A stretch of DNA of 64,000 nt from Qipengyuania gaetbuli (GTDB taxonomy: Bacteria > Pseudomonadota > Alphaproteobacteria > Sphingomonadales > Sphingomonadaceae), in the NCBI RefSeq assembly GCF_009827315.1, contig NZ_WTYF01000004.1, forward strand, positions 310,001 through 374,000, read 5' to 3'. The notes under the pieces were generated by a model, which was not told where the DNA came from, did no database searches, and saw nothing but the letters and a program-made list of their open reading frames with translations. This document shows, piece after piece, positions 14,076 to 23,533 of this stretch (positions within the stretch are counted from its first letter, which is position 1; the number at the start of each line of letters is the position of its first letter). The translations under genes and the position numbers were made by a program.

Positions 14076-16685
14076 CTACTGGCGCAGGCGCTCCAATGCC
14101 TGGGCCATCACCACGTAGAGCTTGCCCATGTCGCTCGACAGCAGGGTGACGCTCAGCGCATTGCCGTCGCGGGTGGACAGCAGGTTCCTGAGCATCGCCT
14201 CGAAGTCGTGGATGTACCGGTTCACGTGTTCGCGGAAATCTGTATCCTCGTCGTAGAGCTCGGCAATCTCGCGGGCTTGGCCATTGTCGATCAGCTTGAC
14301 CGCGCGGCGCGTGAAGATGCCGCGATCGCCGCGCAGGTAGCTGGCCCAGGCGGTGTCGGTCACATCGGTCGAAAGAGCCTTGGCGATATCGATGGAATTG
14401 GAGTTCAGGCTTTCGGTAATGAGAGCCACACGGCGGGCGAAATCGCCGTCCACGCTGTCGGTGATCTTGTCCCGCGCATGAGCGATGCGTGCCTCGAGAT
14501 TGACGGTAAGCTCGTTGAGGCGCGCGAGTTGGTCCCGCAGTTCCTTGGCGGATGAACGCGCCGCTTCGGTGGAGCGTTGGCGGGCCTCGTCGAGACGGGC
14601 GAGCGCATCGGCCGTATGCTCCGCCAGCGCCTTGTCGATTGCTTCGCTGCTGCGTTCGCCGACGGACCTGGCCAGGCGGGCAATCCGCTCGGCATCTTCG
14701 GTTTCTACGGCTTCGAGAGCAGTGCGGGCCCTGTCTTCGAGTTCGGTGATCGATGCGCTGAGTTCGCTCTGCACGCGCTCGGCGAGCTGCGCGCTTTCGT
14801 CCCGCAATGCCGCGATGCCGGCACGCAGGCGTTCGACACTGTCGACTTGCGCTGCGGCAGTTTCGCCGAAGCCCGACTGGAAGTTCTCGAAGCTTTCGAT
14901 GGCTTCCCGCGTCCGTCGTTCGATCTCTTCCATGCCTTGCGTGAGCTGGTCCCCGGAAGCGCGGGCCTGATCGAGCAGCGAGCGGATGTCTGCAGTGCGC
15001 TGCTCGATATGTTCGAGCCGGTCTTCGGACGCCTTCATCGCCACGGGCAGGTCTTCGCGGCTGTGGCGCGCGCTGGCCTGGATCAGTTCGAGCAGGCGGA
15101 CGCTGGCGTCGGTCAGGCGGGCAACCGCAGTATCGGTTCCGTCCAGCGCCTCACGGCTGCCGGTCAGCTTGTCTGCAAGCTTTGTCACGGCCTGGTCGAG
15201 ATCCTCGCCGGCCTCGCGACCCTGCTCGCGCACGATGTCGAAGGTAGAGCCGAGCGCTGCGACCTTCTCGGCCAGCGCCTCGCTTTCTTCGGTCAGCCTT
15301 TCGAGCTGCGAACGTTGGGCTGCGCGACGCGCTTCGACGGCTTCGTCGATTGCCGCCAGCTTCAATTCGAGATCGCGCGCAATGTCATCCTGTGCACCGC
15401 TTAGCGCAGCAAGACGTTCGCTGGTGGCATTGTCGAGCGAAGTGCCATGCGCGTCGATCTTGGCATTGATGGTCTCGGCCCGCTCGTAGAGGACCTGAAC
15501 GCGTTCTGTTGCGGCCTGGATGACGGCCGCATCCATGCGCTCGATTTCCGAGATCGCATCGGTGAGGCGTTTCCTGAGGCCTTCAACCTGTCCGGTCCAG
15601 GCCTCGAGAGCGTGCTCCTCACCCTTGCGGATTGAGCCCGCAAGCTGGGCAGCTTCGACACGCAGCCCTGTGAACCGGTCGCGCATCGCGGCGAGAGCGA
15701 GCTCTTCTTCGGCACTGGCCGTTTGCTGTGCCTCTGCAAGTTCGCTGCGGAGGGCCTCCGAGCGGGCACGGATTGCAGCCAGCGCCTCGATTTCGCGCAC
15801 GTCGAGTTCTGCGCGTGCTTGCTCGCTGGTTTCGCGCAGGGCTGCGAAGCGTTCCTCCCCGATGCGTTCGAGGTCAGACGCCTGGGCGGTAAAGGCTTCG
15901 AGAGCCTCGTCGACGCGGGTCTGGAGCGATTTCACCTGGCGTTCGCTCGCAGCGCCGAATTCGTTGAGCCGCTCGAAGCCGGAAACCAGCTTGTCGAGCT
16001 GTTCCTGCGCGCTGCGACCAGCGCCGCCGATCTGGTTGGAGACGTCTTTCGCGGAATTGGCGATGACGGGCAGATTGTCGCGCAGGCGCGTCATGTTCTC
16101 GAGCGCGGTGGCGCTGACGGTGGCGATCTGTTCGACCTGGTGCCCGTTATCGAGAACGAGGCCCTGCAGCTTGTCCGCATGCTCGGACAGACGCTCGCTC
16201 GCCGAGCGGCTGAGGAATTCGAGTTCGCGCGACTGGCTGCCGAGGAATTCGCGAGCAAGGCTGAGTTCGCGGTTCACGACAGCGAGTCTCGCCTCGAGAC
16301 GGGCAGATTCTTCTGCCAGCGAGCGAGAGACCTCACCGAACCTGCGCGCCTCCACAGTCGAGTAGCGGCGCGACAGGATCCATAGCGAAACGATCAGGAG
16401 GACCGGGACCGCCCAGGCGGAAGTCCAGCCGCTCCACTGCTGGATTGTGCCGCCGGCAAGGATTTCCGCGCGGTTGGCGTAACCGAAGAAAGCCGTCCAA
16501 GCCGTTGTGGCGAGACCCGCGATGGTCGGCACGATCCAGCCCCGGCGAGACATCGCTACGGGTTCGGCCTCTTCCCATTCCTCGAATTCGACCACTTCGT
16601 CCTGCAATTCGAGCGTTTCGGGCTCTGCGTGCTGGACGTTTTCGGTTTCGCCTTCGACGACGGTGATGTGCGATCGCTTCCTCAT
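14076..16685 (-). CDS. Large coiled-coil inner-membrane protein
   Basis: 869 aa with an acidic N-terminal tail (about 45 residues), two transmembrane segments (about residues 51-68 and 84-105) and roughly 640 residues of predicted coiled coil rich in Glu, Ala, Arg and Leu. It ends in a globular region of about 110 residues (ASYLRGDRGIFTRRAVKLID ... LLSSDMGKLYVVMAQALERL). With two membrane passes, both tail and coil should be cytoplasmic. The end region recalls alphaproteobacterial coiled-coil proteins sometimes labelled kinesin-like or ATPase, but I see no Walker motif. It is transcribed divergently from the Hpt-like gene across a 70-bp region holding a CtrA box. Function unknown; a scaffold or polarity role is inference. 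Confidence 0.8.
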   Translation of the reverse strand: MRKRSHITVVEGETENVQHAEPETLELQDEVVEFEEWEEAEPVAMSRRGWIVPTIAGLATTAWTAFFGYANRAEILAGGTIQQWSGWTSAWAVPVLLIVSLWILSRRYSTVEARRFGEVSRSLAEESARLEARLAVVNRELSLAREFLGSQSRELEFLSRSASERLSEHADKLQGLVLDNGHQVEQIATVSATALENMTRLRDNLPVIANSAKDVSNQIGGAGRSAQEQLDKLVSGFERLNEFGAASERQVKSLQTRVDEALEAFTAQASDLERIGEERFAALRETSEQARAELDVREIEALAAIRARSEALRSELAEAQQTASAEEELALAAMRDRFTGLRVEAAQLAGSIRKGEEHALEAWTGQVEGLRKRLTDAISEIERMDAAVIQAATERVQVLYERAETINAKIDAHGTSLDNATSERLAALSGAQDDIARDLELKLAAIDEAVEARRAAQRSQLERLTEESEALAEKVAALGSTFDIVREQGREAGEDLDQAVTKLADKLTGSREALDGTDTAVARLTDASVRLLELIQASARHSREDLPVAMKASEDRLEHIEQRTADIRSLLDQARASGDQLTQGMEEIERRTREAIESFENFQSGFGETAAAQVDSVERLRAGIAALRDESAQLAERVQSELSASITELEDRARTALEAVETEDAERIARLARSVGERSSEAIDKALAEHTADALARLDEARQRSTEAARSSAKELRDQLARLNELTVNLEARIAHARDKITDSVDGDFARRVALITESLNSNSIDIAKALSTDVTDTAWASYLRGDRGIFTRRAVKLIDNGQAREIAELYDEDTDFREHVNRYIHDFEAMLRNLLSTRDGNALSVTLLSSDMGKLYVVMAQALERLRQ

Positions 16686-16714
16686 GCGGGGAAGCTACCA
16701 CGTTTGGGCCATCC

Positions 16715-16731
16715 TTAAAGCCTATTTAACC
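16715..16731. promoter_or_regulatory. CtrA-type binding site in a divergent promoter
   Basis: The sequence reads TTAA-agcctat-TTAACC, a full match to the CtrA consensus TTAA-N7-TTAA(C). It lies centrally in the 70-bp gap between the coiled-coil gene (start 16685, minus) and the Hpt-like gene (start 16756, plus), so one site could control both. CtrA is the cell-cycle and motility master regulator of alphaproteobacteria. Occupancy is inferred, not shown. Confidence 0.7.
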
Positions 16732-16755
16732 CTCGGGCCGCTATTAAGCCGAGCC

Positions 16756-17055
16756 ATGGCCTATCATTCTGCCAGTTTCGACAGTGCCTTAGCGAGCGCA
16801 GCGGGCGAGGATCCCCAGCTCGCGGCGGAGTTGCGCGCGGCGTTCAAGGACAGTCTCGAACAGCGGCTTGACCTCCTCAAGAGAGCGCGCTGTGATGCAA
16901 ACTGGTACCAGGCAGCCGAGCGCCTCCGTGGCCTGGCCGCCAGCTTCAACTCCGGCGAACTGATCGAACTGGCCGAAAACGCGCTGCAGGCCGCTCCGGG
17001 CGAGCCCACCGTGGTGCGCGATATCGAGACGTTCTCCCAAGAATTCGGGGAATAG
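16756..17055 (+). CDS. Hpt-like four-helix protein lacking the phospho-histidine
   Basis: A 99-aa all-helical protein. The start is the ATG at 16756; the longer open frame upstream runs through the promoter region and the antisense of the neighbour. Residues 50-70 (WYQAAERLRGLAASFNSGEL) follow the Hpt pattern 'AHxLKGsAaxxGaxxL' closely, but the phospho-accepting His is Glu55. The later helix ELIELAENAL also fits. It is first in a four-gene set with the NTase-like, helical and kinase-like genes. The sequence shows the motif loss; a scaffold, decoy or adaptor role is inference. Confidence 0.75.
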   Translation: MAYHSASFDSALASAAGEDPQLAAELRAAFKDSLEQRLDLLKRARCDANWYQAAERLRGLAASFNSGELIELAENALQAAPGEPTVVRDIETFSQEFGE

Positions 17056-17110
17056 GGGACCGGAGCCGAAGCTGCTCCTTTGCAGCGGGCACCATGCTGC
17101 CTAAGGTGGC

Positions 17111-18319
17111 GTGCCTGGCTTTTCGGAGTTGTCTGCCCCCGTGCGTATTGCCCTGCTGTCCATACTCGATCGGGATCCCGCTCCTGGGAGAACGAGGCCG
17201 GCCTTCCTGCCATTTGCAGGTGCGCGAGTGATCGAAAGGCAGCTGGACCTGGCATTGTCACTGGGTTGCGAAGCGGTCGCCTGCCTCGCCGACGGCATCG
17301 GGCGCGAGGTCATCGAATTGCAGCACCGGGCCGAAAAGGCAGGCGCGCGCTTCATTGCCGTGCGCGAGCCTGCCAAGCTTTCAGGACTGGTGACTGCGAA
17401 TGACGAATTGCTCGTCATCGCATCGGGCGTCCTGCCAGAGCCCGCAGCAGTAGAGCGCTTGCTGGCAAAGCCCGCGGTGGTCGCATTTCCGGCTGATGTG
17501 GCGGTGCCGCTCGGCTTTGAACGGATCGATCCGGAGTTTGCCTGGACCGGCGTAGTTCTCACACGCGGTAATCTGGTCGAGCGGCTGACCGAGCTGCCGC
17601 CTGATATCGACGTGCCTTCCTCGCTCATGCGACTGGCCCTGCAAACCGGCACGCAGCTCGTCCCTGCGGAACGGCGGCTGCTCGACGACGGGGACTGGAC
17701 GATCGACGCCACGCCCGAAGAGCTTAAGGCCCGCGAAACACGGTGGATCGAGGCTCAGCGGGAGAAGATACCGTTCAACGCTCCGGGTATCGCCGTTGCA
17801 GAGAGAGCGGGAACGCGCCTTGCTCGCGACATCGTCGGGCGGAAAAGCGAGGCTGCTCCGGCTATAGTGTCCGGCGTGTTTGCGGCCTCCGCAGGAATTG
17901 CGGGATGGCTTGAAATGCCGGCCCTGGGTTTCGGGTTTCTTGCCGTTGCGGCTTTCTTCGCGAGGGTGGGCCTCGTAATCGAGCGCATCGCGAGCAAGGG
18001 CGATACTGGCGCGAAACGCGGATCGTTTGTTAAGTTACTGCAGCATCTATCTGATCCTCTTGTGATTTATCTGATGTACGCCGCATCCTCGCAAGAATCG
18101 GATTGGGTGCGCCTGTTCGTGCCCGCTATGCTTGTCGGGTTGCTACGACTTGGCGAATGGCACGGGAACGAGGATTGGCGGCGGACCTACGCGGATCGGA
18201 TCCTGCTCAGTACTATCCTGTGTGCGGCTGCATTCTTCGGGGTATCGGCAGAGGTTGGCGCGTTCATTGCCTTGCTGGTCCTTATTTCCCGCTTTCTTGC
18301 TCCCTTTCGCCAGCCCTAA
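17111..18319 (+). CDS. Nucleotidyltransferase-like N-terminal domain fused to a membrane domain
   Basis: 402 aa, GTG start at 17111. Residues 10-110 resemble the Rossmann-like fold of sugar-phosphate nucleotidyltransferases (ALLSILDRDPAPGRTRPAFL then FAGARVIERQLDLALSLG). The nucleotide loop that normally reads GGxGTR is degraded to PAPGRTR. The C-terminal part, from about residue 250, has about four hydrophobic segments. The layout recalls fusions of a cytidylyltransferase with a CDP-alcohol phosphatidyltransferase, but the DxxDGxxAR motif of the latter is not present. It lies between the Hpt-like and helical genes, same strand, with 36-55 base gaps. Substrate and activity are unknown. Confidence 0.65.
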   Translation: MPGFSELSAPVRIALLSILDRDPAPGRTRPAFLPFAGARVIERQLDLALSLGCEAVACLADGIGREVIELQHRAEKAGARFIAVREPAKLSGLVTANDELLVIASGVLPEPAAVERLLAKPAVVAFPADVAVPLGFERIDPEFAWTGVVLTRGNLVERLTELPPDIDVPSSLMRLALQTGTQLVPAERRLLDDGDWTIDATPEELKARETRWIEAQREKIPFNAPGIAVAERAGTRLARDIVGRKSEAAPAIVSGVFAASAGIAGWLEMPALGFGFLAVAAFFARVGLVIERIASKGDTGAKRGSFVKLLQHLSDPLVIYLMYAASSQESDWVRLFVPAMLVGLLRLGEWHGNEDWRRTYADRILLSTILCAAAFFGVSAEVGAFIALLVLISRFLAPFRQP

Positions 18320-18332
18320 CTTCGAATTAACC
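18316..18332 (+). promoter_or_regulatory. CtrA-like site upstream of the helical-protein gene
   Basis: The sequence reads CTAA-cttcgaa-TTAACC, one base from TTAA-N7-TTAACC. It starts within the last codon and stop of the NTase-like gene and ends 23 bases before the ATG at 18356. It could drive a second, internal transcript of the operon. Because one half-site is imperfect, confidence is limited. Confidence 0.45.
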
Positions 18333-18355
18333 ACACGGCTGCTACGCGCGGGAGT

Positions 18356-19318
18356 ATGACAATGGCGCAGGACAGGCCCGGAAAGAATTCTGGCACGCAG
18401 GCGGAATTGCGCGCTGCTCTTGCGAGCGGGCAGCAGGCGCTCGACCGCATCGAGCCGATACTGGGCCATCTCCTGTCGTCGCCGGACCATTCGCTGTTCA
18501 GCGACGAGATCGTCGCGCGCCTCCGCGGAATGTTTAACGACCTCGCTTGGCAGGTCCTGCGCGTGCAGGCGGAGGCGACCGGTCAGGCGGGCCGCGAGGC
18601 ATTCGCGGAGCGTCACGGCGAAGCACTTGCCGCGCATTTCCAGCAGTGCGGAGCGATCTTGACCCATTGTCATTCGTTGGCGGTCGAATGGCAGTTGACG
18701 GAACGTCTCGAAGCCAAGGGTGGGCTGGACCCGGTACTCTCGCCAGTTCTCCAGGACTTCATTGCACACCACGATCCCTCGGTGGCGAGCACGGCCATGT
18801 CCGCACTTGCTGCGCAGGCGCGTTTTGCGCAGGCGCAGAGGCGTATGGAACTCCCGCTCGCAGAATTGCCAGGTGACCTGTTTCACGAGGTACTCGTGTC
18901 ATGGCGGACCTATAACGGCGAGCGCGTTTCTGACGCTCTGACCCGCGCCGAAGGAAAGATGCGCTCGAATTTCGATGAAAGCGCCAGTCGCCTGGCCCTG
19001 TTCGCCCGTCTAATCGCCAGCATCGGTGGCCAGGCGCTCGACGCGCTAACGCCTGACCGGGCAGGGGCCGGACTGTTCTTCACAGCGCTTGCCGCCCGGT
19101 CGGGTCAAACGAGGGCAGAGGCAATTCTTTCGAGCAATTACCGCCAGGTTCCGAGGCTCGCCCTAGGCCTTCGGGCAGCGGGCCTGCCGGCGAGCAAGGT
19201 CGACGAGGTGCTGTTGAAGCTGCATCCACAGGCGGCACCGATTGCCGATCTCGACCTTGTCAGCGAAGCAGAAGCGCGCCGAATGCTCGCCGATGTGCAA
19301 GCGGAGATCGGCGCATGA
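18356..19318 (+). CDS. Helical hypothetical protein, distantly DUF2336-like
   Basis: A 320-aa soluble, mostly helical protein without a signal peptide or membrane segment. The C-terminal part (residues about 235-300: FFTALAARSGQTRAEA ... LALGLRAAGLPASKVDEVL) resembles the helical-repeat end of DUF2336 proteins, which occur near regulatory genes in alphaproteobacteria; this is a weak resemblance from memory. The last 4 bases overlap the start of the kinase-like gene, so the two are probably translated together. Function unknown. Confidence 0.6.
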   Translation: MTMAQDRPGKNSGTQAELRAALASGQQALDRIEPILGHLLSSPDHSLFSDEIVARLRGMFNDLAWQVLRVQAEATGQAGREAFAERHGEALAAHFQQCGAILTHCHSLAVEWQLTERLEAKGGLDPVLSPVLQDFIAHHDPSVASTAMSALAAQARFAQAQRRMELPLAELPGDLFHEVLVSWRTYNGERVSDALTRAEGKMRSNFDESASRLALFARLIASIGGQALDALTPDRAGAGLFFTALAARSGQTRAEAILSSNYRQVPRLALGLRAAGLPASKVDEVLLKLHPQAAPIADLDLVSEAEARRMLADVQAEIGA

Positions 19319-20727
19319 CCGTCTCGACCAAGCATATCGCTCAAGGGCGCACGGACGCCGAGGACCGGCTTATCGAGGCCGATGGTCCACTCTATGCGCT
19401 GCAGAAGGCTTGCGGCGGCGGGAAGGGGACCACGCTCGCCATACCCGAACTGCTGATGCTGGTCGGGAAAGCGCGCAGCTTTGGCCTTCGCCTTGCCCGC
19501 CAGTTCGAAGCGGTCGACGAGGAGTCCCACATTACGGCTTGGGTGGAAATCCGCCCGGTCGGCGGAGGCAAGGACGGCTGCGAAATTATCGTCGAGAGTT
19601 GGCAAACCGAGCCGCTACCTCCTGAAAATTCCATCGATTCCGATCGCCGCAAGGTCGAGATCAACCGGCATTTGGCGGAATGCACCGCACGTCTCGATCC
19701 GGCCCAACGCCTGCTTTCCCTCGAAACAGAGGCACCCGATCTCGCAGGTTTGCAGGCCAAGGTTGCCGGTGCGATCGGCAAGCCCTGGACGGACCTGGTT
19801 GAAATCGAGGGCAGTTCGCACGAACAGCCGATGCACTGGCGTCTGCTTGACGGTGCGCATTGCCGCGTGCCGGGATCCAAGCGGTTGTGGACGGCACACC
19901 TGGAGCCGCTCGGCCAGCCGACGCCCGGAAGCGCAGGGTTCGTGCTCCACCTGAGTGCGGAAACGCCGCTGGCGGACCTCCCTGCCGAAGCGGCGCCCGA
20001 CACGCCATCGCTCGGCCGCGATCTTACGCCGGTCCTGCGCCAGCCGATCAATCGCATTATCGCCAATGCAGAGACGATCCGTACCAAGCTCGCCGGGCCG
20101 ATTGCGGACGAATACAGCCAGTACGCCGCCGACATTGCCAGCGCCGGGCAGCATCTTCTCGCTCTGGTAGACGATTTGTCTGACCTCGAGATCGTGGAGT
20201 CGGAGGATTTCGTCACCGAACCCGACAGGATCGAGCTCGCCGATGTCGCGCGGCGAGCATGCGGCATCCTCGGTGTCAGGGCGCGGGAACGTGGAATTAC
20301 ACTCGTTCCGCCGGCCGAGGGTGAGAGCCAGCTGGCGATCGCGGAGTTTCGCAGGGTCCTGCAGATCATGCTCAACCTCGTCGGCAATGCCATCCGTTAT
20401 TCTCCGGAGGACAGCCAGGTCTGGATCAGGCTGGATCGTATCGGATCGCGCGCGATGATTACCGTGGCCGACCAGGGGCATGGGCTCGACGAGGACCAGC
20501 AGGTCCGCATTTTCGAGAAGTTCGAGCGGCTCGGGCGCAGCGGTGATGGCGGTTCCGGGCTCGGCCTCTATATTTCGCGGAGGATTGCACGGGCAATGGA
20601 CGGCGATCTCACCGTGGAGAGTGCGCCGGGTCTGGGTGCGCGATTCACGCTCTCCGTTCCGGCTGCGGAAGAGATGCGCAATGCGCCGCGCGAAGGCCGC
20701 CCGGCGGACGGCCCCGACTTCAAGTGA
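19315..20727 (+). CDS. Histidine-kinase-like protein lacking the H-box histidine
   Basis: 470 aa. The C-terminal ATP-binding domain is intact: N-box NLVGNAIRYSPED (about residue 356), G1 box DQGHGLDEDQQ (about residue 385), F box IFEKFERLG and G2 box GDGGSGLGLYISRRIA (about residue 413). The dimerisation region reads DLTPVLRQPINRIIANAE where the H-box should read xHELRTPLNxIxG, so the phospho-accepting His is Pro239. No transmembrane segment is seen; the N-terminal 200 residues are a possible sensory domain with no family I recognise. Precedent for kinase-fold proteins without the His exists (DivL of Caulobacter has Tyr). It is the last gene of the set, followed by a terminator that serves the opposing gltA. 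Confidence 0.8.
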   Translation: MTVSTKHIAQGRTDAEDRLIEADGPLYALQKACGGGKGTTLAIPELLMLVGKARSFGLRLARQFEAVDEESHITAWVEIRPVGGGKDGCEIIVESWQTEPLPPENSIDSDRRKVEINRHLAECTARLDPAQRLLSLETEAPDLAGLQAKVAGAIGKPWTDLVEIEGSSHEQPMHWRLLDGAHCRVPGSKRLWTAHLEPLGQPTPGSAGFVLHLSAETPLADLPAEAAPDTPSLGRDLTPVLRQPINRIIANAETIRTKLAGPIADEYSQYAADIASAGQHLLALVDDLSDLEIVESEDFVTEPDRIELADVARRACGILGVRARERGITLVPPAEGESQLAIAEFRRVLQIMLNLVGNAIRYSPEDSQVWIRLDRIGSRAMITVADQGHGLDEDQQVRIFEKFERLGRSGDGGSGLGLYISRRIARAMDGDLTVESAPGLGARFTLSVPAAEEMRNAPREGRPADGPDFK

Positions 20728-20778: not shown

Positions 20779-22065
20779 TCAGCGCTTGTCCATCGGGATG
20801 TAGTCGCGCTCCGTCGGCCCGGTGTAGAGCTGGCGCGGGCGGCCGATGACCTGGCCGGGATCGGAGATCATCTCGTTCCACTGCGCCACCCAACCCACGG
20901 TGCGGGCAAGCGCAAAGAGTGCGGTGAACATGGTGGTCGGGAAGCCGATCGCAGAGAGGATGATGCCCGAGTAGAAGTCTACGTTGGGGAAGAGCTTCTT
21001 CTCGCGGAAGTAATCGTCATTGAGAGCGATTTCTTCCAGCTGGAGGGCAGTCTCGAAAACCGGGTCCTTGACGTTGAGCGCCTCGAACACCTCACGCACG
21101 GTCTTCTGCATGACCGTCGCGCGCGGGTCGTAGTTCTTGTAGACGCGGTGCCCGAAGCCCATCAGGCGGAACGGATCGTTCTTGTCCTTCGCACGCTCGA
21201 TATAGTGCTTGATGCGATCGGGCGTGCCGATTTCCTGCAGCATGTTGAGTGCGGCTTCATTGGCGCCGCCATGTGCAGGGCCCCAGAGACAGGCGATACC
21301 GGCCGCGATGCAGGCGAACGGATTGGCACCCGACGAACCGGCAAGGCGCACGGTCGAGGTCGAGGCGTTCTGTTCGTGGTCGGCGTGCAGGATGAAGATC
21401 CGGTCCATGGCGCGTTCGACGGCCGGATGGATCTCGTATTCTTCGGCCGGAACACCGAAGGTCATGCGCAGGAAGTTGCCGGTGTAGCTCAGCGAGTTCT
21501 TCGGCTGCAGGAAGGGCTGGCCGATCGAGTACTTGTACGCCATCGCCGCGATGGTCGGCATCTTTGCGATCAGGCGGTGCGAGCTGATCTTGCGGTGCTC
21601 GGGATCGGAAATGTCGGTGCTGTCGTGATAGAAAGCCGACAGGGCACCGACGACGCCGCACATGATCGCCATGGGGTGCGCATCGCGGCGGAAACCCTGG
21701 TAGAATTGACGCAACTGGTCATGGACCATGGTGTGGCGCGTGATCGTGTAGTCGAAGTCGGCGAGTTCTTCCTGGTTCGGCAGTTCGCCGTTCAGGAGCA
21801 GGTAGGCCACTTCCATGAAGCTGGAATGCTCGGCCAGCTGGCCGATCGGATAGCCACGGTGAAGGAGAACGCCTTCCTCGCCGTCGATATAGGTGAGGGC
21901 GCTTTCGCAGCTGGCCGTCGACTTGTAACCCGGATCGTAAGTGAACTTGCCGGTCGTTCCGTAAAGCTTGCGGATGTCGATGACGTCCGGCCCGACGCTT
22001 CCCTCAAGCACGGGGAAGGTCTGGCTCTGTCCGCCCAAATCGAGTGTTGCCTGTTTGTCGGCCAC
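20779..22065 (-). CDS. gltA: Citrate synthase, type II
   Basis: Condenses acetyl-CoA and oxaloacetate to citrate at TCA cycle entry, 428 aa. Active-site histidines are in [15 protein letters not shown] and [15 protein letters not shown]; the catalytic aspartate is in NVDFYSG. The GTG start at 22065 ([12 protein letters not shown]) is supported by GAGGAGA a few bases upstream and by the usual length. The upstream in-frame codons overlap the gltX end and were rejected. It lies 22 bases downstream of gltX on the same strand. Confidence 0.96.
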
Positions 22066-22087
22066 GCGTGTCTCCTCAGTCAGTCTT

Positions 22088-23533
22088 TTACCTGGGACCT
22101 GCCGGGGAGGCCTGCGCGTCGATCCGCGCGAGAGACTCCTCCTTGCCCAACAGGACCAGAACATCGAAAATTCCGGGTGACGTGGTTGTCCCCGTCAGTG
22201 CCGCACGCATGGGCTGCGCGAGCTTGCCAAGACCCAGTTCGAGCTCCTCGGCATACGATTTCGTAGTGGCTTCGAGAGCCTCGATTGTCCAGTTATTTTC
22301 CGCCTTTAGACGCTCCGTAAGGCCGCCAAGCCTCTCGCGCGATTCATCGTCGAGCAGGGCAGCGGCCTTTTCGGTCATTTCAAGCGGCCTCTTGGCGAAG
22401 AGAAACGCTGCACCTTCAGCGAGTTCATGCGTGGTCTTCGCACGCGGTTTCAGGACCGGCATTGCCTGTGTCAGCAGGGCGACATCAGCCTTATTTCCTA
22501 TGGCCTCGGCGACCAGCGCCGCCAGCCGCGCATCATCGGCTTCGCGGATGTAATGCGCATTGAGATTGAGCAGTTTCTTGATGTCGAAGCGGGATGCGCT
22601 CTTGCCGACGCCATCAAGATCGAACAGCTCGACAGCCTCGTCGCGGGTGATCTCCTCGCGGTCGCCGTGGCCCCAGCCAAGGCGCAGCAGGTAGTTGAAC
22701 AGCGCTTCCGGCAGGACGCCTTCCTCGTCGCGATAGGCCTCGACGCCGATGGCACCGTGGCGCTTGGACATTTTCGCCCCGTCCGAGCCGTGGATCAGCG
22801 GTACGTGCGCGTAGACGGGATCCGGCCAGCCGCCTTCGATGGCGTTCATCGCGCGGATGATCGGCAGCTGGCGGAACGCGTTGTTCAGGTGGTCATCGCC
22901 GCGGATGATATGCGTCACGCCCATGTCGTGATCGTCGACGACGACCGCCAGCATATAGGTCGGAGTGCCGTCTGCGCGCAGCAGGATGTAGTCATCGATC
23001 TCGGCGTTCTGGACCGTGACCTTGCCCTGCACGGCGTCGTGGATCGTGGTCTCGCCCTCGGTGGGGACCTTGAGACGGATCACGAAGGGTGCGCCCGCGG
23101 GTGCTTCGGAGGCGTCGCGGTCGCGCCAGCGACGGTCGTAACGCATGGGCTGCTTGTTAGCGCGCTGCTGGGCGCGCATCTCTTCCAGTTCTTCGGGCGT
23201 GGCGTAACACTTGTAGGCGTGGCCCGCTTCGAGAAGCTGCATGGCGACTTCCGCATGTCGCGTCGCGCGGTCGGACTGGAACAGCGGCGGCTCGTCGAAG
23301 TCGAGACCGAGCCAGTCGAGCCCTTCGAGGATCTTGTCGATGGCTTCCTGCGTGCTGCGCTTGCGATCGGTGTCTTCGATACGGAGCAGAACCTTGCCGC
23401 CGTGGTGACGTGCGTAGAGCCAGTTGAAAAGCGCGGTACGGGCGCCGCCGATATGAAGAAAGCCGGTGGGCGAGGGGGCGAAACGGGTCACCACCTGCTG
23501 GGTGCTGGCGGTCGTTTCGGTTTCGCTTGCCAT
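22088..23533 (-). CDS. gltX: Glutamyl-tRNA synthetase
   Basis: Class I aminoacyl-tRNA synthetase charging tRNA-Glu, 481 aa. The ATG at 23533 ([10 protein letters not shown]) is preceded by AGGAAAGAAGAG. The ATP-binding HIGH motif appears as [12 protein letters not shown] near residue 22 and the KMSKR motif as AKMSKRHGA near residue 248. The open frame extends 212 codons further upstream, but this is antisense to comEC. gltX and gltA appear to form a two-gene unit. Confidence 0.96.

Follow-up and report, generated by a model that had tools for sequence, protein, structure and literature searches.

Single pseudo-kinases such as DivL are already known, and the plant pseudo-Hpt AHP6 has the Hpt fold without the acceptor histidine and is thought to compete for receivers. 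TipN, a landmark of the new pole in Caulobacter, reportedly combines N-terminal membrane segments with a long coiled coil in about 880 amino acids (Huitema 2006; Lam 2006). DivL has neither kinase nor phosphatase activity; it binds DivK~P, its binding of a nucleotide analogue is weak, and its repurposing as a binding sensor is a model (PMC4211667). TipN remains at the new pole once the cell has divided, and it interacts with ParA and Tol-Pal (PMC7403779), and the DUF2336 protein SpbR is tied to cell-pole development by the title of Wang and Bowman 2019, as cited in PMC12700997. Here we describe a locus of Qipengyuania gaetbuli in which a histidine kinase fold and an Hpt fold, both lacking the phosphate-accepting histidine, are encoded together with a TipN-like coiled-coil protein, a DUF2336 protein and a membrane protein. 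It lies at positions 14076-20727 of a 64,000-nucleotide stretch of contig NZ_WTYF01000004.1 (positions 310,001 to 374,000), and this whole stretch is called the window below. No account of this five-gene locus was found in the accessible open-licence literature on DUF2336, on TipN in sphingomonads or alongside Hpt, on SpbR in Caulobacter or on pseudo-Hpt proteins, and among the matches listed the pseudo-Hpt literature concerns plants, to judge from its titles.

A first-pass annotation had described five adjacent genes on one divergent promoter, which the coordinates of the open reading frames bear out. The promoter, of 70 bp, separates the minus-strand TipN-like gene from four plus-strand genes, and the kinase reading frame overlaps the DUF2336-like one by 4 bp. 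The features are as follows.

14076..16685, minus strand: TipN-like protein (P0001), 869 amino acids, with N-terminal membrane segment(s), a coiled coil assigned by eye and a conserved C-terminal domain
16715..16729, no strand assigned: TTAA-N7-TTAA box of CtrA type, between the divergent starts
16756..17055, plus strand: pseudo-Hpt (P0005), 99 amino acids, with Glu55 in place of the acceptor histidine
17111..18319, plus strand: membrane protein, 402 amino acids, GTG start, with predicted degenerate nucleotidyltransferase and CDP-alcohol phosphotransferase (IPCT-DIPPS-like) parts
18356..19318, plus strand: probable divergent DUF2336 protein (P0003), assigned by profile homology, 320 amino acids, helical
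19315..20727, plus strand: pseudo-histidine kinase, 470 amino acids, with Pro239 in place of the acceptor histidine and intact ATP-binding motifs

Loss of the phosphate acceptors

In Pfam the kinase-fold protein scores 95 bits with HATPase_c and 28 bits with HisKA, and it has the N, G1 and G2 ATP-binding residues of a histidine kinase. The acceptor histidine of the DHp domain is absent, its place being taken by Pro239 (codon 20029-20031). Among 105 aligned kinase rows, in which the window's own protein is counted twice (as it is in the 86 Hpt rows below), the site holds proline in 99, serine in four, alanine in one, arginine in one and histidine in none, and the glutamate and threonine that stand next to the acceptor are also lost (0/105 and 1/105). 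A further 15 kinases, two from the window's genus and 13 from other genera, have arginine in six, proline in three and one each of asparagine, alanine, lysine, serine, glutamate and histidine. We also read loci with organism names, taken as the best 80 of more than 581 matches to the coiled-coil alignment; here proline was found at the kinase site in 66 of 71, with the other five unread by the site pattern, and the corresponding Hpt-site pattern yielded no readings for 72 such loci.

The ATP site has fared differently from the acceptor: all 120 pseudo-kinase rows retain N354, D386, G388, G413, G415 and G417, and 119 of them retain G390. In the DHp helix just past the acceptor, positions 247, 250 and 251 hardly vary, unlike the acceptor position. 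They read R, A and N in 103, 102 and 104 of the 105 rows and in 13, 12 and 13 of the 15 additional kinases, as against A, G and F in the outgroup kinases described below (8/8 each), and we infer that this changed stretch, R-I-I-A-N, is a re-specialised binding face. Across 22 aligned rows, identity to the window's kinase ranges from 35 to 78%.

At the acceptor position of the window's Hpt stands Glu55 (codon 16918-16920), so that the histidine of HxxKG required of a catalytic Hpt is missing. By itself the match of P0005 to PF01627 is weak (E 0.042, under the Pfam cut-off); its profile aligned with those of canonical relatives gives an hhalign probability of 95% (E 3.6e-8), which supports homology to the Hpt family, and one such relative (L328) matches PF01627 with 37 bits. 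The site reads methionine in 39 of 86 rows, leucine in 17, glutamine in 13, glutamate in nine and other residues in the rest, with histidine in one; none of 12 additional Hpt proteins has histidine there. A profile search of the PDB with the Hpt returned only weak matches to retroviral capsid proteins (E at least 0.15), judged to be chance.

The statement that both folds lack the phosphate-accepting residue is thus confirmed for the window, and close relatives lack it almost throughout (histidine in 0/105 kinases and 1/86 Hpts). As for whether the substitutions are fixed, it is the loss of the histidine that is nearly fixed, and the supposed His-to-Glu change in the Hpt is not. Since sites without histidine are found across the clade rows and in most of the additional relatives, the loss is old, though not absolute.

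Conservation of the gene neighbourhood and selection

Homologues of P0003 were found in 104 of 296 Sphingomonadales genomes, one in each, and regions of up to 20 kb were taken for all 104. The same order and orientation of all five genes was found in 84; 18 regions without the Hpt gene are weighed in the Discussion, and two deviate otherwise (L042 without a match to the nucleotidyltransferase-like membrane protein, L055 without the coiled-coil gene). The expectation that the five genes stay together therefore holds in most regions, with the Hpt as the member that is most often missing. Among the organism-named loci, whose top matches in the best 80 of more than 581 are Erythrobacter and Qipengyuania, 65 of 80 match all five profiles (53 of 59 among those longer than 19 kb). 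In 20 more regions, read from 18 genomes of which two belong to the window's genus and one (G020) to a different family, the module is again found, in a less compact arrangement.

To estimate selection, the ratio of nonsynonymous to synonymous substitution rates (dN/dS) was computed on stop-to-stop frames for six species pairs, five of them informative and the sixth near-identical and saying little. In the five informative pairs the coiled-coil, membrane-protein, DUF2336 and kinase genes have dN/dS of 0.03-0.14, and the Hpt gene 0.06-0.33. The module genes are under purifying selection. Recent decay of a phosphorelay is rejected, given old and widespread histidine losses, low dN/dS and retained synteny.

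The accompanying proteins

P0001 is most conserved over its C-terminal ~120 residues. Its N-terminal membrane segments and long coiled coil, the latter assigned by eye, resemble the layout reported for TipN, and its coupling to pseudo-phosphorelay genes is where it differs. In six distant relatives that were read, open frames of 691-886 amino acids with one or two hydrophobic N-terminal segments have a layout like that of P0001. The first-pass annotation had called P0001 a two-pass protein; a simple hydropathy test accepts one N-terminal segment in P0001 and two in three of the six relatives (L304, L305, L307). The family is widespread, being found in 275 of 296 genomes of the order (alignment query, E 1e-15) and in 55 of 289 of the class (E 1e-10), four of them from the window's family and 51 from outside it. 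Neither P0001 nor three distant relatives has an NCBIfam TipN match, though NCBIfam may hold no TipN model, and the Pfam and NCBIfam matches that P0001 does have look like coiled-coil noise.

For P0003, described in the first-pass annotation only as a helical protein of unknown function, profile comparison gives a more specific assignment. The P0003 family aligned with canonical DUF2336 at an hhalign probability of 97.5% (E 5.4e-12), and PF10098 matches 3 of 23 aligned family members (best 2e-16), which points to a divergent DUF2336 protein by profile homology. Pfam gives no PF10098 match for P0003 itself or for any other protein of the window's genome, while the control, Caulobacter vibrioides, has one. 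With an alignment query at E 1e-6 the helical family occurs in 219 of 296 genomes of the order, including ordinary DUF2336 proteins of other families; the Pfam DUF2336 model scores 211-244 bits in four outgroup proteins scanned, E 0.0015 in one module member (L257) and nothing in another (L258). The family thus shares profile homology with the SpbR/DUF2336 group (PF10098, NF052659). It differs from SpbR in that P0003 matches no NCBIfam model, NF052659 included, and two outgroup proteins score 150 and 171 bits with NF052659, below its 400-bit cut-off.

The remaining membrane protein had been called nucleotidyltransferase-like, and is better described as degenerate and IPCT-DIPPS-like. The catalytic motif of IPCT-DIPPS and other CDP-alcohol phosphotransferases is D-x2-D-G-x2-A-R. 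The C-terminal half, a membrane domain, aligns to the IPCT-DIPPS structure 4mnd (E 4.4e-7), but the motif is lost in the aligned stretch. A MobA-like NTP transferase domain (NTP_transf_3) is matched by 3 of 23 members (best E 0.00067), and the membrane half is poorly conserved. The protein is likely a pseudo-enzyme. Its profile was found in 10 of 240 class genomes at E 0.001, three of the same family and seven weak (E 9e-8 to 7.5e-4, 38-156 profile positions), and no full-length match outside the window's family was found among 237 class genomes.

The divergent promoter and the CtrA pathway

The consensus CtrA site claimed for the shared promoter is present: TTAAAGCCTATTTAA, a perfect TTAA-N7-TTAA, lies at 16715-16729 between the two divergent starts, and the box is CtrA-like and conserved in position. 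A relaxed form (TTAA, TAAA or GAAA-N7-TTAA) occurs in 73 of 85 promoters, 38-42 bp before the Hpt start in 71 and 50 bp before it in two, as against 0.18 expected in shuffles, a post hoc control since the relaxed pattern was set after the promoters had been read. The relaxed box is absent from the other 12 promoters, in several of which the rule used for the Hpt start misplaced the start. The perfect form is found in 13 of 85 promoters. A scan for perfect sites, which found them in 15 of 102 regions with two in the other 1.94 Mb, understated the conservation of the box. By eye and by k-mer counts, we also observed a recurrent TATCAC/TACCAC element near the start of the coiled-coil gene, at about 16695-16702 in the window and in other promoters, which is perhaps the -10 region of that gene.

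Since the window's genome encodes ChpT (115 bits against a cut-off of 22.9), a kinase resembling CckA (512 bits with a Brucella model, below its 1000-bit cut-off) and a DivL-like kinase with tyrosine at the site (SYEFRTPL, G000:C4:667005-667208, L285), it likely has a CtrA pathway. The presence of this separate DivL-like gene means that the kinase-fold protein of the module is probably not DivL, and we judged it unlikely to be a DivL orthologue, as it has proline and not tyrosine at the site.

Canonical relatives outside the family

Nine outgroup regions were read, picked from DUF2336-like matches among the matches listed (L266 came from a separate listing). In eight of the nine, with L280 deviating, a DUF2336 gene is directly followed by a PAS/HisKA/HATPase kinase with the motif SHELRTPLN, and all eight of these kinases have the acceptor histidine. 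Among the pseudo-kinases, 9 of the 15 additional ones and 2 of the 105 from the clade match the PAS domain of these outgroup proteins (E 8.7e-19 to 2.2e-5); of 14 other kinases encoded by the window's genome, one does so. In a tree of 55 kinase cores, 36 pseudo-kinases form one group (support 100/99).

In four of five outgroup genomes of the order (G026, G020, G058 and G007; not G006), the gene upstream of the TipN-like one is divergent from it and encodes a small Hpt with the motif HxxKG or HxxRG. A canonical Hpt stands beside the TipN-like gene in two of six class genomes, at a distance of about 830 bp in L306, limited flanks being available. All six outgroup Hpts have the histidine. However, L331, L304 and L306 had been found by a pattern that requires it, so the fair count is three of three (L330, L332, L334, found by profile). 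A second, larger Hpt-like protein with histidine (AHDMKGQGGTF or AHDMRGQGGTF) was also seen near outgroup TipN-like genes (L330 2068-2607; L331 275-790; L333 3-512; L323 4413-4814).

Within the roughly 1.5 kb of flank covered, a DUF2336 gene and the TipN-like gene are arranged tail to tail at 6 of 20 outgroup loci of the order and at 2 of 26 loci of the class. These pairs outside the window's family (L314, L317, L323, L324, L325, L326, L140 and L150) form a recurrent pairing of two polarity-linked families. Together, the outgroup arrangements suggest that the module arose from a DUF2336 gene with an ordinary PAS kinase, and from a canonical Hpt divergent from a TipN-like gene.

Within the window, RNase J and DUF1467 border the module to its left and citrate synthase to its right. 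The citrate synthase gene (20779-22164) is convergent with the module, and in 101 of the 104 regions it is less than 6 kb from the kinase. In Caulobacter, the citrate synthase CitA emerged from selection in tipN cpdR mutant cells (PMC7083601); a link with this adjacency may be coincidence.

Discussion

We consider it somewhat probable, from comparison of sequences, that the five genes encode a non-catalytic polarity module, a TipN-anchored scaffold that binds receiver-domain partners in the fashion of DivL. Because the histidines are lost yet the proteins are preserved by selection, signalling is probably by binding instead of phosphate transfer. The first-pass annotation had offered two targets for a non-catalytic signalling or scaffolding module, the CtrA pathway or cell polarity, and only the link to polarity gained support, from neighbours that point there (the TipN layout and the DUF2336/SpbR superfamily). 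A fuller version is possible but more tentative: near the base of the window's family, kinase and Hpt would have been turned into a phosphate-free contact relay joined to a TipN-type landmark, keeping an ATP switch and a re-specialised docking face, so as to read ATP or receiver state and position polar machinery. In the polarity module as first proposed above, the TipN-like protein would mark the new pole or division site and recruit the other products. The pseudo-kinase would act as an ATP-dependent binding switch, docking a receiver-domain protein or pairing with an active kinase without phosphorylation, and the pseudo-Hpt, where present, would be an adaptor or decoy to which receivers dock. 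A link to polar assembly may come from the DUF2336 protein, in line with the role proposed for SpbR in Caulobacter, and the membrane pseudo-enzyme may be an anchor or ligand sensor, with CtrA timing expression to the late cell cycle.

Several observations weigh against a module of this kind. The Hpt alone is absent from 18 of 104 regions that have the other four genes; these loci show no notable weaker Hpt match and have no room for one, their neighbouring frames being -227 to 261 bp apart, compared with a median of 388 bp in loci with an Hpt. The module is split in G005 and G047, the two genomes of genus g2 that were read at both places (L260-L263), where a TipN-like/Hpt pair lies apart from the membrane-protein, DUF2336 and kinase set, and G190 and G191, of the window's own genus, keep only the coiled-coil, membrane-protein and kinase genes, without Hpt and DUF2336. 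Histidine is still found in one Hpt (L073, AAHRLKG) and in one kinase of another genus (L264 8279-9748, DHSFKPP). In the pair that includes the window, the four genes have dN/dS of 0.12-0.14 compared with 0.06 for citrate synthase (gltA) and 0.08 for RNase J, and are thus less constrained. Perfect TTAA-N7-TTAA sites are not enriched in the 2.78-Mb genome (four, compared with six for the backward control). The proposed origin is affected as well: a match to the outgroup PAS profile has been lost from the window's kinase and from almost all kinases close to it, the canonical Hpt was found in only part of the outgroups (4/5 in the order, 2/6 in the class), and the tree did not resolve a sister grouping of pseudo-kinases with DUF2336-linked kinases, as it does not place the outgroup kinases as sisters (support 69/87).

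Of the other explanations, an unlikely one that survives best is a phosphorelay that is still active, the ATP domain of the pseudo-kinase phosphorylating the histidine of a partner kinase in a heterodimer. The retained ATP-binding residues would fit this, whereas DivL binds a nucleotide analogue only weakly (PMC4211667), but the operon has no active partner kinase, Hpt and kinase have both lost the acceptor, and the glutamate and threonine beside the histidine are gone too. It is more doubtful that the pseudo-kinase is a DivL-like regulator of CckA which replaces the inputs of DivJ and PleC, even though DivJ-PleC-DivK is stated to be degenerate or wholly lost in Sphingomonadales (PMC2877005), the promoter has a CtrA-like box, and the kinase core is DivJ-like (NCBIfam DivJ, 95 bits, far below the 1000-bit cut-off); a separate DivL-like gene in the genome and fixed DHp residues unlike those of the outgroup kinases argue against it. 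That the genes are relicts of an old phosphorelay, slowly decaying and carried by their neighbours, is very improbable, for although the Hpt (and in two genomes DUF2336 too) has been lost in places, the Hpt has the higher dN/dS and the membrane half of the pseudo-enzyme is poorly conserved, the other four genes have low dN/dS, ATP motifs are kept, new residues are fixed, and synteny is retained over kinases of widely varying identity.

A non-catalytic polarity module can be set beside the described systems. Like DivL, the pseudo-kinase has HisKA and HATPase_c without the acceptor histidine, but it differs in having proline instead of tyrosine, intact ATP motifs and another gene context (TipN/DUF2336); we propose, by analogy, that it works in the manner of DivL with a live ATP site. 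The pseudo-Hpt shares with AHP6 the lack of the acceptor histidine, and differs in being bacterial and in an operon with a pseudo-kinase. What sets this locus apart is a conserved operon, tied to a polarity-type protein, whose kinase and whose Hpt have each lost the phosphate acceptor. Together with the canonical relatives outside the family, it forms a natural comparison of before and after in which to ask how phosphorelays turn into scaffolds. The locus would also open sphingomonad cell polarity to genetic study, in a group whose DivJ-PleC-DivK system is reported to be degenerate or lost (PMC2877005).

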